DNA of 64,000 nucleotides from Arthrobacter sp. PAMC25564 (GTDB lineage: Bacteria > Actinomycetota > Actinomycetes > Actinomycetales > Micrococcaceae), in contig NZ_CP039290.1 of NCBI RefSeq assembly GCF_004798705.1, positions 3,844,001 to 3,908,000 of the forward strand, read 5' to 3'. Positions 22,565 through 50,838 of the stretch are shown in pieces. The position numbers and the translations under genes are program-made. Under the pieces are notes generated by a model. That model searched no databases and had not been told where the DNA came from. It worked only from the letters and a program-made list of their open reading frames with translations. The stretch's first letter is position 1; each line of letters starts with the position of its first letter.

Positions 22565-24095
<1,531 letters not shown>

Positions 24096-43376: not shown

Positions 43377-46300
43377 TTATTGCGCCACGGCAGCCGCTGT
43401 CGCGAAGACATCAGCAGGCATCGGCCGGTGCAGCTTCCAAGTAATTGCGATCGGCCTCTCCCCCGCATGCTGCACATAGTCCACCTGACCGAGGCACGTG
43501 TAGGGAACGGTCAGCCCGGTCTCATCCTCTGAAGTATCCCGTGTGAAGATCAGGATCTTCGAACCGTGGGCAGCCCGGCCCAGGTAGCGCTTGCCCGTCG
43601 GGCTTCCGGGTGAGGTCGCGTTCTGCGATTCCCAGTGAAACAGCTCCGGGCTGATGGCGTAGTCCTTGTACATGGTCGTGGCCGAGTGTTTCTTGTCGTC
43701 CTTGTTGAGCGTGACGAAGAAGGCATCGGTGGACGTCGCCGGGCACCACGCCACGCCCTCGCGGTGCTGCACGTTCTTGCCGAGCTCCAGCGACCCGTAC
43801 TGCAAGGCAGCCAGGATCTCCTCTCGGCGGTAGGTGGCGTGCGAGAGCAGCGGGACGTGCTGCAGCCCCGCCCCCAAACCCTTGGCGGCATGCTTGGACG
43901 CGGCCACGCCGAGCTTCACGAGCTGGCGGATCTCGCTACAGACAAACTGGTAGCCGCGCAGATAGTCCAGTCCGGCGTCGTATGACTGGAAACCGCCGCC
44001 GTCGTCCCACAGCGTGTAGAACAGCATCCTGGCAAACGTCTGTTCCCGCATTCCAAGCTCCGCGTAGCGGGGCGCGTCGGCGCCGACCAGCATCGAGTAG
44101 GTTTCGGCGCGCTCCGGATCGTCCACGTGGATCAGCGCGGCCATCCGACCGAGGAGCTTCTTCTCGTCGGCGTCCGAGAGCTCCTGGATCTTCCCGCTGA
44201 TGACTGCCTCCAGCGGCGAGAACCCGTCGATCAGGCCCGCCTGGCGGAGGTATCCGGTCCACGAATCCCTGGTCGACCGGTAAATCGACTTCACGTCGTT
44301 TCCGGACCGCTCCAGGTAGGCCTCTAGCTCCGTCTCCGCGTACGAGGCGATGTCCCGGACCAGCTGGGCCCGGTTGAACCGCAGCTGGGCCTTGATGTTG
44401 TCCAGCACCACCTTCTGCGCAACCCGGTCCAGCACGATCTGAGAGCCGGACGGCAGATACGGGAACTCATCCTCCACCGCCTTCTCCAGCTCCTTGCGCC
44501 CGTAGCCGGTCAGTGCCCGGTAGCGCAGGTCGAAGCGGAACTCGCGGCGCTGCTGGCCGATGAAGTCCATGACGGTCAGGACCGCTTTGCCCTCGGCGCG
44601 GCGCAGCCCGCGTCCCAGTTGTTGGAGGAAGATCGTGGCGCTCTGCGTGGGCCGGAGCAGCAGGATGGTGTCCACCTGCGGCAGGTCCAGGCCTTCGTTG
44701 AAGAGGTCGACGGCGAAGATGCAGTTGATCTCGCGTTCGGCGAGACGCTTCAGCGCGGCCGCGCGGTCGGCGTCGGCGGTGCTGCCATCGACCGCGATGG
44801 AGGCGATGCCGGCGCGGTTGAACACCTCGGCCATGTAGTGGGCGTGCTGGACCGAGACGCAGAAGCCGATGGCCCGCATCTGCTCGGTGCTGGTGACCTT
44901 GTCGCGGAGTTCGCGGATCACCTTGGCGGCGCGGGCGTCGTTGCCGGTGTAGAGGTTGTTCAGCTGCGCGGTGTCGTAGTTGCCGCGCTTCCATTCCAGC
45001 TGGCTCAGGTCGACGTCGTCCGAGACGCCGAAGTAGTGGAACGGCACCAGCAGATCGGCGTCCAGGGCGTCCCAGAGGCGAAGTTCGCTGGCGGTGCGGC
45101 CGTCGAAGAACTGCTTGGCGACGTCGACGCCGTCGCCGCGTTCCGGCGTCGCGGTCAGCCCAAGGAGCTGCTGCGGCTGCAGGTGGTCCAGCAGACGGCG
45201 GTAGGTGGGCGCCATGGCGTGGTGGAATTCATCGATGACGACTACGTCGAAGAAGTCCGGCTCCAGCTGTTCGATGCCGAGGGATGACAGCGACTGGACG
45301 GAGGCGAAGATGTGCTTCCACTGCCGGGGTTTGTGCTCCCCGACGTAGAGCTCGCCGAAGGCGCCGTCCTGCATGACGTCACGGTAGGTGCGCATGGCCT
45401 GTTTGAGGATTTCCTGACGGTGGGCGACGAAGAGCAGCTTCAGGTCTTTGCCCTCCGCTTCACAGAGCCGCTTGTAGTCCAGCGCGGCGATGACTGTCTT
45501 CCCGGTGCCGGTGGCTGCGACGACGAGGTTGTGGTTGAACCCCTTGAGTCGCTCGGCTTCCAGGTCTTCGAGCATCTCCTCCTGGTGCAGGAAGGGCTGG
45601 ACTTCGAGACCGGTGGCGGCGTCCGGGGCTGCGGTGCGCCGGCCGCCGTTGCGTTCCAGTGCGGCGTCCAGCTTGTCGCCGTCCCGTTCCGGATCGTAGC
45701 TTTGGAAGGCGCGCTGCTCCCAGTAGCTGTCGAAGGTGACCTCGAACTTCTGCAATAGTGTGGGCGTTCCGACTGAGCTGAGCCGGACGTTCCATTCGAG
45801 ACCGTCCAGGAGGGCGGCCTGGCTGAGGTTAGAGCTGCCGACGTAGGCGGTGTCGAAGCCCGAGTCCCGGCGGAACAGCCAGGCCTTGGCATGCAGCCGG
45901 GTGGCCTGGGTTTCGTAGCTGATCTTTACATCGGCGCCATAGCGCGTGACGAGCTCGTCGATGGCGCGGCGTTCCGTAGCGCCCATGTAGGTGGTGGTGA
46001 TGACTCTTAGGCGGGCACCGCGTTCCTTGAGCTGCTCGAGCGCGGGCTGGAGGAGCCTGAGGCCCGTCCACCGGACGAAGGCGCAGAGCAGGTCCACCGT
46101 GTTGGCGGACTCGATCTCGGTTCTTAGCTCGGCGGCGAGGTTTGGATCGTCCTTGCTGTTGGTGAGCAGGGCGGAATCACTCAGCTTCGTGGTGGGGCGG
46201 CGTAGGCTGCGGCGTTTGAGGGTGTCCGGGCGGTGCAGGGACTGGAGTTGGGTGGGACCAGCGGCGATGCGGTCTGTGGTGTTCAGTTCCTGGAGGAGGC

Positions 46301-46532
46301 GGTTGGCCAGGCCGACTCTCTCTGCCGGTTTCGCCGCGGCGAGGGCCTGCCGGACGGCGTCGGCGACGTGGCGGGAGAGGATGCCCGGGGTATCTTCGTC
46401 TTCTACCGGCATGAAGCGGGAATCAAGTCCCGGCGTTGCCAGCAACTGCGCCGAGAGCGCGTCGGTGTTTAGTAGCTCGTATAATCCCTCCGGCAGCTGC
46501 TCCGCCACCGGTCCCCCGTCGATTTTATTCAC
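43377..46532 (-). CDS. PLD-nuclease/SF2 helicase/DUF3427 fusion protein
   Basis: A 1051-residue three-part protein. Residues about 130-290 are a phospholipase D-type nuclease with one HxKx6D motif (His214, Lys216, Asp223 in LHAKAWLFRRD), with VGSSNLSQAAL after it. Residues 310-760 are an SF2 helicase with Walker A AATGTGKT (339-346), DEFH (434-437), and motif VI QQLGRGLRRAEGK. The C-terminal third is DUF3427, with YLGRAAHGSKILIFTRD near the end. The start is GTG with a poor Shine-Dalgarno. Similar helicases occur in many defence islands and are thought to act on foreign DNA. It is separate from hamAB (260-base gap). Confidence 0.88.
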   Translation of the reverse strand: MNKIDGGPVAEQLPEGLYELLNTDALSAQLLATPGLDSRFMPVEDEDTPGILSRHVADAVRQALAAAKPAERVGLANRLLQELNTTDRIAAGPTQLQSLHRPDTLKRRSLRRPTTKLSDSALLTNSKDDPNLAAELRTEIESANTVDLLCAFVRWTGLRLLQPALEQLKERGARLRVITTTYMGATERRAIDELVTRYGADVKISYETQATRLHAKAWLFRRDSGFDTAYVGSSNLSQAALLDGLEWNVRLSSVGTPTLLQKFEVTFDSYWEQRAFQSYDPERDGDKLDAALERNGGRRTAAPDAATGLEVQPFLHQEEMLEDLEAERLKGFNHNLVVAATGTGKTVIAALDYKRLCEAEGKDLKLLFVAHRQEILKQAMRTYRDVMQDGAFGELYVGEHKPRQWKHIFASVQSLSSLGIEQLEPDFFDVVVIDEFHHAMAPTYRRLLDHLQPQQLLGLTATPERGDGVDVAKQFFDGRTASELRLWDALDADLLVPFHYFGVSDDVDLSQLEWKRGNYDTAQLNNLYTGNDARAAKVIRELRDKVTSTEQMRAIGFCVSVQHAHYMAEVFNRAGIASIAVDGSTADADRAAALKRLAEREINCIFAVDLFNEGLDLPQVDTILLLRPTQSATIFLQQLGRGLRRAEGKAVLTVMDFIGQQRREFRFDLRYRALTGYGRKELEKAVEDEFPYLPSGSQIVLDRVAQKVVLDNIKAQLRFNRAQLVRDIASYAETELEAYLERSGNDVKSIYRSTRDSWTGYLRQAGLIDGFSPLEAVISGKIQELSDADEKKLLGRMAALIHVDDPERAETYSMLVGADAPRYAELGMREQTFARMLFYTLWDDGGGFQSYDAGLDYLRGYQFVCSEIRQLVKLGVAASKHAAKGLGAGLQHVPLLSHATYRREEILAALQYGSLELGKNVQHREGVAWCPATSTDAFFVTLNKDDKKHSATTMYKDYAISPELFHWESQNATSPGSPTGKRYLGRAAHGSKILIFTRDTSEDETGLTVPYTCLGQVDYVQHAGERPIAITWKLHRPMPADVFATAAAVAQ

Positions 46533-46792: not shown

Positions 46793-48949
46793 TCACGCGG
46801 CCGGCGTCGCCATGCTGGCAAGAGCATCGTCGAGGAGACGTCGCTCGAACGCAGTCAGTTCAGGAAGATTGCGGCCGCTGAGGACTTTCAGCCCGAGCAT
46901 CAACTGGTCGAGATTCTGAACGCTCGAAAGTCTTCGCTGGAGCTTCTTCAAGACTTGCGAGGGGATGCCATACTCCTCCGCGGTCAGAAATAGGGGCGTC
47001 TGGAATCCTGCTTCCACACGAGCGGCATACGGGGCGAAGTTTCCGGGGGTGATTCCCCGCTGCTCCAGAACTTCCTTGGCGATCCTGTCCACAGCTCTGA
47101 TGAACACCGGAAGGTTGTGGTCAATCCAGAACCTCACGAAATCGAAGGCATCCTCAACAAGTTTGTCGTGGTCCTTGTCGGTTTCCGCACGGGAGGTGAA
47201 GTTAGCGATGACCTCACGGATGTCGCCATGGGCGGCCGCCATCTTTGAGCAAAGCATGGCGAGATGCTCGGGTGACCGCGCCCCGTGAGAGGAGACACCT
47301 CGCGGCGGCATTGTCTTCCAGAACAGGCTGAAGACAGCAAGTAACTGCGGATAGGACGGGGCGGCTGTTTCCCAGAGGATGTCCCTGAACGCGGAACGCT
47401 GCGCCGTTTTCAGTTGCTTGGCAAGTTGAATCTGTCCGTGGGGATTCACGCCCTGGTTCAGCCGCAACGTCTCCTGCGAGAGGTACGTCTGCTCCGTGAC
47501 TTCCCTCAACCGTTCATTTGTCTCCTCAGTGCGGTCTTCCTCCTCGATGGACAACAGCAATGACTCGGAAGCGGCAGCGCTTTGACTCAGACCCGGCATG
47601 TCGATGTCAGGCAGTTCGAATGGCGGCGGCTCATTGAACAGGAAGACTTTGCCCACGAAGTGTTTGAGCATCCTGCCTCCACGCCCACGGATGTTGGCGA
47701 AGGTGAACCAGTCGTACTTCTTGGTGGAAACATTCTTGTCCAAGATGATGACGTTCTTGGCCCTGGTGTTCACCCCCTCGATGAGTGAAGAAGTGCAGAC
47801 GAGCACCTTCAGTGCTCCCTCGTCAAAGCCCTTGACCATGAGCGGGCCGAGCCACCTTGGAAGTTTTCCGTGATGGATCCCCACACCGAGCCTCAATGAC
47901 TCTGGCAGTGTCCATCTCTCGCTGAAATGCTCGCCAACCCAGGCAGCGGCATCGGGCATCCCCTCGGCGTATCCGCCCTCGGGAGCATCTTCACGCAACC
48001 AGCGGGCAACCTCGCCAGCTCGAGGCGGCGACTGGCAGTAGATGAGCGTCGGGCCATCGACTTCTTCCAGAATCTCTTTGAGCCGCGCCCGCCGTTCGCC
48101 ATCATTCGTTGCCTCCACCCTGATGGTGTCCGCAGCGACAGTTGCGTAGTCAGTGATTATGAGAGAGGTCCTGAGGTTCGTCGGAAGGTGTTCGGACAGC
48201 TGCCCGATGTTAGGCGCGGCGAAATAAAATTGTGCATCTGTCTTCATCAACCGGTAGAGAGCCTGATTGAGCAGGGCCCCACGCTCTGAATCCTCGTTAA
48301 GTTTGTAGAACTCATCAAGGAAGAAGAATCCAACATCAGGCATCTCCTCCATGGCGAGGTAGCGTTCCTGCGTGAGAACAAACAGGTTCCGGGACGCATT
48401 TGACTGCCCTGGGTGGGTGATCACCTTGTAGTCAGGGAACTGGACGCTGAGGCGTCGGCGTATCTCATCAATGAGGGCAAGCGTTGGCACGATGATGACG
48501 ATATTGTCATGCCGGCGGGTGGCAATGATGGCATCCATCACCAGTGTCTTCCCGAAACTCGTTGGAGCCGATAGGAGGACATTCTCCCCGCTCAAGAGTT
48601 TGCGGTAGACCTCAGCCTGCACACGGTGGAAGACGACTTTACCCATGTCGTCGGGCCGGTGCATCTCCAAAGCAATGAGGTCTGGCAGAGGCAAGTAATT
48701 GGTGTCCAGGTTTTCGATGTAAGGGAAAAGTCCCTGATCCCGGGCGAGGGAAAGCAGGAGGGGCATCTCGTTGGTGAAATCCCCGGACCTGTCGAGAGCA
48801 CGGATTACCAAGTCCTGAATCTCGGTGGTTGTGCCGTGAAGTGTTTTGAGGGAGGCGATGCTGGCCAGGATTTCAAAGCCTTTGCCGTCGAAGGACGGAG
48901 CTGAGAGTGCCTGCTTTAGACCCTCGAAGGTTTGGTTGAGTCCTGGAAT
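46793..48949 (-). CDS. hamB: Hachiman helicase HamB, apparently starting at ATT
   Basis: An SF2-type helicase that forms the two-gene Hachiman anti-phage system with hamA. The frame is open from 48949. There is no ATG or GTG near the start; TTG 48811 (Leu47) would remove 46 residues that look like protein (GLKQALSAPSFDGKGFEIL, ASIASLKTLHGTTTEIQDLV). The ATT at 48949 has GGGAGG eight bases upstream and yields 718 residues. Motifs in that numbering are Walker A SAPTSFGKT (127-135) and DEFY (212-215), followed by the helicase C domain VGIHHGKLPRWLGP and TSSLIEGVNT, NIRGRGGRM. The start lies 34 bases inside hamA, so expression is coupled. Confidence 0.88.
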   Translation of the reverse strand: MPGLNQTFEGLKQALSAPSFDGKGFEILASIASLKTLHGTTTEIQDLVIRALDRSGDFTNEMPLLLSLARDQGLFPYIENLDTNYLPLPDLIALEMHRPDDMGKVVFHRVQAEVYRKLLSGENVLLSAPTSFGKTLVMDAIIATRRHDNIVIIVPTLALIDEIRRRLSVQFPDYKVITHPGQSNASRNLFVLTQERYLAMEEMPDVGFFFLDEFYKLNEDSERGALLNQALYRLMKTDAQFYFAAPNIGQLSEHLPTNLRTSLIITDYATVAADTIRVEATNDGERRARLKEILEEVDGPTLIYCQSPPRAGEVARWLREDAPEGGYAEGMPDAAAWVGEHFSERWTLPESLRLGVGIHHGKLPRWLGPLMVKGFDEGALKVLVCTSSLIEGVNTRAKNVIILDKNVSTKKYDWFTFANIRGRGGRMLKHFVGKVFLFNEPPPFELPDIDMPGLSQSAAASESLLLSIEEEDRTEETNERLREVTEQTYLSQETLRLNQGVNPHGQIQLAKQLKTAQRSAFRDILWETAAPSYPQLLAVFSLFWKTMPPRGVSSHGARSPEHLAMLCSKMAAAHGDIREVIANFTSRAETDKDHDKLVEDAFDFVRFWIDHNLPVFIRAVDRIAKEVLEQRGITPGNFAPYAARVEAGFQTPLFLTAEEYGIPSQVLKKLQRRLSSVQNLDQLMLGLKVLSGRNLPELTAFERRLLDDALASMATPAA

Positions 48950-49836
48950 GACTTCAGCCTCCCGTCAAACGATTCCAACAGTTCTCTCTTCGTCGAGGTG
49001 GGAAGCAGGATGAGCTGTGCCCTGACCTCCCGAGGAAACTTCTGGTTGCCAAACCGTCGTCGAAAGTCTTCCCACTCTGTACGGATTTCGACGGCAATTT
49101 CCTCCAGATACTCAGCAGAGGAAACCGCATGTCGTCCGGTAGTTTCGCTGTTGTACGAGATGAAGACCGGGATGACCACTCTCGAAAAGACCTTGTCGAG
49201 CGATGTCTGTCGGGCGAAGAGTGCTTTGAGCGTGGGTGTATGCTCCCATGTGGCTGGCAATTTATCGGATATGGCGGCGAACTCATCATGAAGATAGTCC
49301 GTCTCCAGATGCTCTTTGAGTGATGAAAATACGGCACCCGCCGCACCGTGGGCATCTTTGTAGAGTTTCGATTCACCAATCCAGAGTTCGAGCTCGGAGG
49401 AGCCATCTTTTGCTTTTTTCGGAACAACATGCACACAGTCCCAGCCATGGACAGCATGGTTTGCGGCATCCTTGAAAAAAATCCGGGTAATCGCCTTTTC
49501 GCTGTTCTTGAACTTGCGAAGGATGATGTGCAGAAGGAGTTCCCCGATTTCGCCACGGTTCTCATACTCGGCAGAGGTGTAGATGCGTCGCATGGCTTTC
49601 GCCATGAGTTCCCCGGCGTTTGCCCATCCAAAGGACTGCAGATCTTCATATGACAGAACCCAATCGGGGGCCCAGTTGATCATGTCTAGGGATAAAGCGT
49701 CATAACGCCATCTCTTGTCGTCGTGCCCTGCACAGACTCCAAGTAATGCCACTAGGTCATCAGCCTCTTCAGCAACAACACTTAGCACCGTAGCCGGTAA
49801 ACCGTCAGATTGCACCTGTCCCCATCCAGATTTCAA
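48916..49836 (-). CDS. hamA: Hachiman nuclease subunit HamA (DUF1837)
   Basis: A 306-residue DUF1837 protein. The PD-(D/E)XK nuclease core is visible: Glu99 in GEIGELLLHIIL, Asp133 in HGWDCVHV, then Glu155-Ser-Lys157 in LELWIGESKLYKD. HamA is the DNA-cutting effector, released when HamB senses damaged or invading DNA, by comparison with studied Hachiman systems. The start is TTG with no clear Shine-Dalgarno, so it may be placed slightly wrong. A promoter candidate lies 70-100 bases upstream. It is followed by hamB with a 34-base overlap. Confidence 0.88.
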   Translation of the reverse strand: MKSGWGQVQSDGLPATVLSVVAEEADDLVALLGVCAGHDDKRWRYDALSLDMINWAPDWVLSYEDLQSFGWANAGELMAKAMRRIYTSAEYENRGEIGELLLHIILRKFKNSEKAITRIFFKDAANHAVHGWDCVHVVPKKAKDGSSELELWIGESKLYKDAHGAAGAVFSSLKEHLETDYLHDEFAAISDKLPATWEHTPTLKALFARQTSLDKVFSRVVIPVFISYNSETTGRHAVSSAEYLEEIAVEIRTEWEDFRRRFGNQKFPREVRAQLILLPTSTKRELLESFDGRLKSFQDSTKPSRV

Positions 49837-49907
49837 TAGCCACGTGCACCGGCTAGCAGCGCTTCTATTGCGAGCTGTCAGCCGAGCAAGTCTCTCTGCT
49901 TAGGCAA

Positions 49908-49936
49908 AATATACCTCGAATAGGTCCACAAACTAA
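49908..49936 (-). promoter_or_regulatory. hamAB promoter candidate
   Basis: On the minus strand, -35 TTAGTT (49931-49936), a 17-base spacer, -10 TATATT (49908-49913). It is A/T-rich against a high-GC background, about 70 bases before the hamA start. The rest of the 324-base gap to 50160 has no gene. Confidence 0.5.
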
Positions 49937-50160
49937 CCCAAGTCTGATTGCAAACCAAAAGTGAACCGGTTGACGCCAAAAGCCAGTGCCAGCCCGTTAA
50001 AATTCTCCCTATGTGACGCCGACTCTTCCAATATCGACTTTTTCCCGGCCGCTAGCTGTACCATCCTCCCGGGTTAGCGCAGCTAGCGGGACCACACGAC
50101 AAGGTGGTGGACATCCTACTGGTCGTGAGTGGACATGTGGTTCGCCGCCAACAAACGAGC

Positions 50161-50838
50161 TCACTTCATCTCCCTCCCCCGCACCCACAACCTTGACGGC
50201 CTCCCCCGCGTCCCGTCGGACATCAGCCCGGTCCCCTTCAGCTTCGGCTCCATGAAGCGCCGGAATGTGTCGCGCATCAGCGTCTGCCCGGCTACCGCCT
50301 CGTGCAGCCCCCGCAGGTCCTTCAAGGTGAACGGCTCCTCCAGCAGCTCCCCCGGATCGGGTTCCTCCGCGTAGGCAGCCCGCAGCCACTCGACAGCATT
50401 CGCCACAATCTCCGCGTGCCCATACGGCAGCCCGGCAATCAGCTCCGGTTCCCCGGTCACGGAAGCCAGCCGGACGCCGTCGGACTTCAACGCCTGCTCC
50501 AGATCCGCCAGCGGCACCATGTCCACGTGCGCCACGGACAGCACCCAGCCTCGGTCGTCGCGGCCCGGATCGTCGAAGACCCGCAGCTGGCGCGGCTCCC
50601 TGCCCGAGATGCCAACTTTCTCCCGCAGGCAGCGCAGCACCGCGTCCGCCAGGGTCTCGCGTTCACGCAGAAACGTGCCCGGCAGCGCCCACTTCCCGTG
50701 CTGATCCGGTTCCCCCCGTTTCACCAGCAGCACGCACACGCTGCCCTCCGACACGGTCAGCACCGCCGTATCCGCCGCCACCGAGGGACGCGGGTAGTCG
50801 AGCAGGGACATGCCTGGACCGTTCTTTGAATCCTTCAC
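50161..50838 (-). CDS. NrtR-like Nudix-domain transcriptional regulator
   Basis: A 225-residue protein with an N-terminal Nudix fold (20-150) and a C-terminal winged helix (LKDLRGLHEAVAGQTLMRDTFRRFMEPKL), the layout of NrtR regulators that sense ADP-ribose or NAD metabolites. The Nudix box at 54-77 (GTFLRERETLADAVLRCLREKVGI) is degenerate: RC and EK replace the usual RE and EE, so catalysis is doubtful, as in true NrtR. GTG 50838 or ATG 50811 could start it. It is divergent from the ADP-ribose gene row, with two palindromes between. Confidence 0.85.
   Translation of the reverse strand: MKDSKNGPGMSLLDYPRPSVAADTAVLTVSEGSVCVLLVKRGEPDQHGKWALPGTFLRERETLADAVLRCLREKVGISGREPRQLRVFDDPGRDDRGWVLSVAHVDMVPLADLEQALKSDGVRLASVTGEPELIAGLPYGHAEIVANAVEWLRAAYAEEPDPGELLEEPFTLKDLRGLHEAVAGQTLMRDTFRRFMEPKLKGTGLMSDGTRGRPSRLWVRGREMK

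Follow-up and report, generated by a model that had tools for sequence, protein, structure and literature searches.

A Hachiman hamB gene of Arthrobacter that probably initiates at an ATT codon within hamA

The hamA and hamB genes of Arthrobacter sp. PAMC25564, carried on the 64,000-nucleotide stretch of DNA that was analyzed (hereafter, the window), are a Hachiman pair in which the site for hamB initiation lies inside the end of hamA. The best explanation of the missing canonical hamB start codon, which we consider probable from the comparisons given below, is that of a single-domain hamAB operon in which exchange of a conserved HamA tryptophan for phenylalanine gives ATT at the hamB start position, where ribosomes would still initiate, although more weakly and in linkage with hamA. 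The embedding of the hamB start in the hamA tryptophan codon, now a phenylalanine codon, is, as read from the codons of relatives, the cause that was overlooked in a sequence-only reading of the window.

The hamAB pair and known Hachiman systems

The two genes adjoin on the minus strand with an overlap of 34 nt in a host genome that consists of a single contig of 4.17 Mb. The hamA gene, which encodes a HamA (DUF1837) nuclease, occupies positions 48916..49815 with its stop codon at 48918-48916, and the hamB start region lies inside its end. The listed hamA open reading frame begins at TTG 49836, but alignment with P0122, a database HamA, makes GTG 49815 the more probable start. The hamB gene, which encodes a Ski2-like helicase, spans 46793..48949 if ATT 48949 is taken as its first codon, a frame of 718 codons that has no internal stops and in which all of the helicase motifs checked are intact. 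The assignment of the pair to Hachiman, made earlier from the letters alone, was borne out by PADLOC profiles for both genes (HamA, 283.5 bits versus PDLC00166; HamB, 691 bits versus PDLC00180) and by PF08878 for HamA (158.2 bits, cut-off 25). On sequence grounds the two genes form a genuine Hachiman pair arranged as a single-domain hamAB operon, with defense and nuclease activity predicted. A promoter scan of positions 48500-50400 found no promoter-like site.

HamAB of E. coli ECOR31 (PDB 8VX9) has the same organization, a HamA (DUF1837) nuclease adjoining a Ski2-like HamB helicase. However, ECOR31 HamB is far from the window HamB in sequence (34 bits to 8vx9_B), and the latter protein of 718 residues has a non-canonical start. 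The closest solved sequences are those of AbpAB (PDB 8ZUE), described in the accessible part of PMC12278908 as a Hachiman variant: AbpB scores 477.9 bits over nearly the whole HamB profile and AbpA scores 49.2 bits against the HamA profile. AbpA has 565 residues, an extra N-terminal domain, and no E-x-K in the aligned stretch, whereas the window HamA is a single-domain protein with E-x-K. Hence, the window pair is by sequence much nearer to AbpAB than to ECOR31 HamAB, yet its HamA keeps E-x-K. A GESK motif lies at HamA residues 154-157 (numbered from TTG 49836), and the E-x-K motif may correspond to the E138 and K140 residues of PMC12278908, again from the accessible part. According to the same portion of that paper HamB constrains HamA, binding via an N-terminal helical bundle to give a 1:1 complex, and only HamB is soluble when alone.

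A long open reading frame (43377-46532, minus strand) located 260 bp downstream of hamB matches the PADLOC profile for type IV restriction proteins of the PLD/helicase kind (1122 bits; Pfam domains ResIII, DUF3427, and PLDc_2), and thus the locus looks like a possible small defense cluster.

The hamB start site in the window and in relatives

A codon-by-codon reading agreed with the earlier description of the hamB frame, which opens after a TGA at 48967-48965 (minus strand) and continues open to the stop at 46793. The 51 codons that follow the TGA include no ATG, GTG, or TTG, and the first canonical codon is the TTG at 48809..48811, which would encode Leu47. About 9% of random frames (uniform codons) would lack a canonical start over 51 codons, which is not rare by itself, and therefore the relatives must decide. 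The GGGAGG noted earlier, a Shine-Dalgarno site, is found as claimed, at 48963-48958 inside hamA and eight bases ahead of the ATT at 48949-48947. This ATT is composed of the third base of a hamA serine codon (TCA, 48949..48951) and the first two bases of a phenylalanine codon (TTC, 48946..48948), and directly before it stands a second near-cognate codon, GTC (48950..48952), within reach of the same Shine-Dalgarno site. The hamA frame AAG-TCA-TTC-CAG (K-S-F-Q) is therefore read as GTC-ATT-CCA in the hamB frame.

Eight distinct loci having HamB proteins at least 46% identical to that of the window were examined (L004, L005, L006, L007, L035, L036, L037, and L038; two pairs are near-identical at the hamB start site). 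In these loci the hamA tail is RLK-x-W-Q with a conserved tryptophan codon, TGG, at the place of the window TTC. In all eight, the hamB start is composed of the wobble base of hamA codon x plus the TG of the tryptophan codon and is followed by GCA, giving four ATG, three GTG, and one TTG start codons. These canonical codons occupy the very positions of the ATT in the window, and the AGG of a hamA arginine codon lies 8 nt before each of them. The window has phenylalanine (TTC) in place of tryptophan, so the start position reads ATT and HamB residue 2 is proline instead of alanine. The ATT sits where the homologous start codon does, behind the Shine-Dalgarno site, and no canonical alternative is nearby.

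The AGG of the Shine-Dalgarno site is at the same place in all nine loci (the window plus the eight close loci). As AGG accounts for 9-23% of the arginine codons in the genes of these loci, the product of the frequencies is 2.7e-8, a value that ignores kinship. The duplex of GGGAGG with the 16S tail, a sequence with five occurrences in the host genome, was computed at -14.0 kcal/mol, near the strong end of the range for seven relatives (-8.8 to -14.6). A 16S 3'-end sequence also lies in the window itself at 22569-22588 (minus strand), probably the site of an rRNA operon.

A broader comparison used 88 distinct loci that have hamA and hamB on one strand. These were obtained from 147 sequences found by translated DNA search upon removal of two copies of the own genome (L001 and L113), ten duplicates (L033, L034, L039, L114, L115, L122, L127, L134, L143, and L144), two loci in which only one of the two genes was recognized (L089 and L108), and 45 having neither gene over threshold. 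The profile that predicted the hamB starts was built from homologues with annotated canonical starts, although the loci themselves came from the DNA search rather than from annotation, and the canonical codon nearest to the predicted start need not be the true one. An ATG (66), GTG (10), or TTG (7) lies within 30 nt of the predicted start in 83 of the 88 loci, and in four distant loci (L129, L130, L135, and L136) an ATG follows 39-63 nt downstream. The window stands at the far end of the set, with no canonical codon for 129 nt from the predicted start. The nearest canonical codon is embedded in the hamA tryptophan codon in 38 of the 88 loci, which is an upper figure because some of them (e.g., L050, L052, L066, L073, L076, and L085) have a further ATG 12-18 nt later.

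Other searches added no nearer sequences. Pattern searches with a single HamB sequence gave no relative in genome contigs or viral contigs. The plasmid set gave no blastn matches, and its tblastn matches (56 records) were all of <60% identity. Genomes were also searched for HamA at the family (395 genomes), genus (206), order (396), and class (394) levels, which yielded nothing closer than the relatives already in the set.

The protein matches extend the comparison of the exchanged residue. Tryptophan is found at this place in 43/43 HamA matches (P0123-P0165), and phenylalanine only in the window and in P0122; as the letter tally is out of register for some distant matches, only its W and F rows were used, and three matches (P0166-P0168) gave no motif. 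P0122 is 82% identical to the window HamA and has the same KSFQ ending in its tail, KSFQDSTKPSRP. When all codon choices for this tail were enumerated no ATG, GTG, or TTG was possible in the hamB frame within it, the sole exception being an NTG at the very end if the hamA stop codon is TGA. The tail of P0122, which is known as a protein only, requires NTT at the start place, where 8/8 more distant loci have canonical codons. Thus, a second lineage lacks a canonical hamB start at this place, whatever its codon. A sequencing slip was considered as the cause of the missing start and is unlikely, given the phenylalanine tail shared with P0122.

Close full-length HamB proteins start with MANSIEAVK, MATSIEAI, and similar sequences and align from window residue 4 onward. 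The check proposed earlier, alignment of residues 1-46 with homologues, showed that residues 4-46 align with all ten close homologues tested (15-22 of the 43 residues identical), which begin at about the ATT position rather than at Leu47; the earlier claim that a TTG start would trim protein-like sequence is therefore upheld. These identities are enough to say, from the alignments, that Leu47 is not the ancestral HamB start.

Taken as sequence evidence, these comparisons make ATT 48949 the likely hamB start. Several points tell against it. Conservation of HamB is lower over residues 4-46 than over residues 47-95 (29-37 of 46-49 identical), ATT is a poor start codon, and the GTC is in reach. 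In addition, both window proteins have three extra residues past the start site, those of HamB coming right after the start.

Other accounts of the missing start codon

Initiation at the preceding codon, GTC 48952, from the same Shine-Dalgarno site and with the explanation otherwise unchanged, is unlikely but deserves the first place among the alternatives. This codon is 5 nt from GGGAGG, P0122 could have ATC or GTC at the same place, and the accessible part of PMC5472188 gives GTC as the proven, IF3-repressed start of Streptomyces sigR. However, 8/8 close loci start in the ATT register with the 8-nt gap, and none of them has a start codon in the GTC register.

We regard as quite unlikely a loss of the start in which useful production of HamB has ceased and the system is in decay. 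A tryptophan constant in the 43 close HamA matches has indeed changed, and ATT is a weak codon, reaching ~0.3% of the output of the top codon when all 64 were surveyed (accessible part of PMC10666635). Decay would not be expected to leave a 718-codon open frame with all checked motifs intact, the Shine-Dalgarno site kept, and the same phenylalanine tail in P0122. Moreover, where the window HamB is compared with P0002, a database HamB 83% identical to it that may derive from a similar locus, differences fall at 1 of 123 invariant columns versus 103 of 487 others (Fisher p 2.8e-10), and the window HamA differs from P0122 at 1 of 71 invariant columns versus 48 of 213 others (p 6e-6). Judged by alignment, the HamB sequences are under purifying selection. 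The annotated start of P0002 is an internal methionine on a 4443-base contig, which is uninformative as the contig may end there. Two further database HamB proteins, P0017 (with HamA P0130, both on an 89252-base contig) and P0040 (with HamA P0136, both on a contig of 48391 bases), are annotated ~60 residues short; their HamA tails keep tryptophan, so NTG is predicted from the protein at the hamB start place, where a wobble C would give CTG.

Initiation at TTG 48811, to give a 672-residue protein beginning at Leu47, is very unlikely and was rejected. Although it is the first canonical codon and the start used by the predicted database protein P0001, the duplex of its upstream sequence is only -4.6 kcal/mol, the protein would lack the residues that align with all ten homologues, and in no close relative's DNA is the nearest start at that place. 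A start at ATT, together with the lack of a canonical codon before TTG 48811, would explain the N-terminal cut of the database HamB copy.

A HamA-HamB fusion formed by -1 ribosomal frameshifting, the alternative raised in the sequence-only reading, is disfavored and the least likely account of all, for although hamB is in the -1 frame of hamA and the overlap is open and without a canonical start, the overlap has no slippery heptamer (the one X-XXY-YYZ in the hamA frame is 564 nt before the hamA end), none of the 120 HamB matches listed exceeds 732 residues, and close relatives keep separate hamA and hamB starts.

Initiation at ATT and its consequences

The favored explanation is conveniently divided into steps: (i) the Shine-Dalgarno site, written in hamA codons, is retained and ribosomes would still initiate at ATT, which we infer since that site has kept its spacing and HamB its N-terminus, (ii) such initiation would fall below that at an ATG and be subject to discrimination by IF3, (iii) ribosomes finishing hamA within the 34-nt overlap may aid hamB initiation, and (iv) HamB would then be made in lower, hamA-linked amounts.

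An ATT start is known from infC, where it serves IF3 autoregulation. The host infC appears to be so arranged (AGGAG, 7 nt, ATT; G000:C1:3466892-3467392, minus strand, locus L147); upstream of the ATT its open frame has no ATG or GTG but does have TTG at two places, 57 and 69 nt away. The Shine-Dalgarno site followed by ATT is shared with hamB, but infC encodes IF3 itself, whereas hamB would be a defense gene that has its start within the coding sequence of its partner. In S. aureus, according to the accessible part of PMC13009471, cvfC1 has a ribosome-profiled AUU start with an extended Shine-Dalgarno site and gives ~10% of the output of an AUG reporter. Like that of hamB, this AUU stands behind a strong Shine-Dalgarno site, and it is conserved between species; unlike hamB, cvfC1 initiation was shown by ribosome profiling, and cvfC1 is the first gene of its operon and is not embedded in another gene. 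Streptomyces sigR-rsrA is, like hamAB, an actinobacterial two-gene unit, in which a GTC start under IF3 repression sets the ratio of sigR to its partner RsrA (accessible part of PMC5472188). In that unit the upstream gene carries the weak start, which was tested in vivo, whereas in hamAB the downstream gene carries it and it is deduced from sequence. Among the best matches in the open literature we found no paper linking Hachiman with a start codon, an overlap, or translational coupling, and a search of the same literature for antiphage defense with a non-canonical start codon gave no match.

A more speculative proposal, which we put forward only tentatively and consider doubtful, is that HamB, as a sensor/restraint helicase, is dosed via an IF3-sensitive ATT fixed in the lineage by one exchange in HamA, such that HamB supply tracks hamA translation and the condition of the initiation machinery. 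If that reading is true, whether HamA is armed or restrained would depend on the same two factors. With a weaker start, HamB could become limiting, unless coupling to hamA compensates.

The hamAB overlap clearly illustrates, in nature, how a start codon can lie within a conserved residue of the partner protein, such that a tryptophan to phenylalanine exchange in one protein rewrites the start of the other. If the ATT is used, the few bacterial genes that have non-canonical starts would be joined by a defense gene, and dosage by start codon could be tested in a nuclease-helicase pair whose HamB reportedly restrains HamA.
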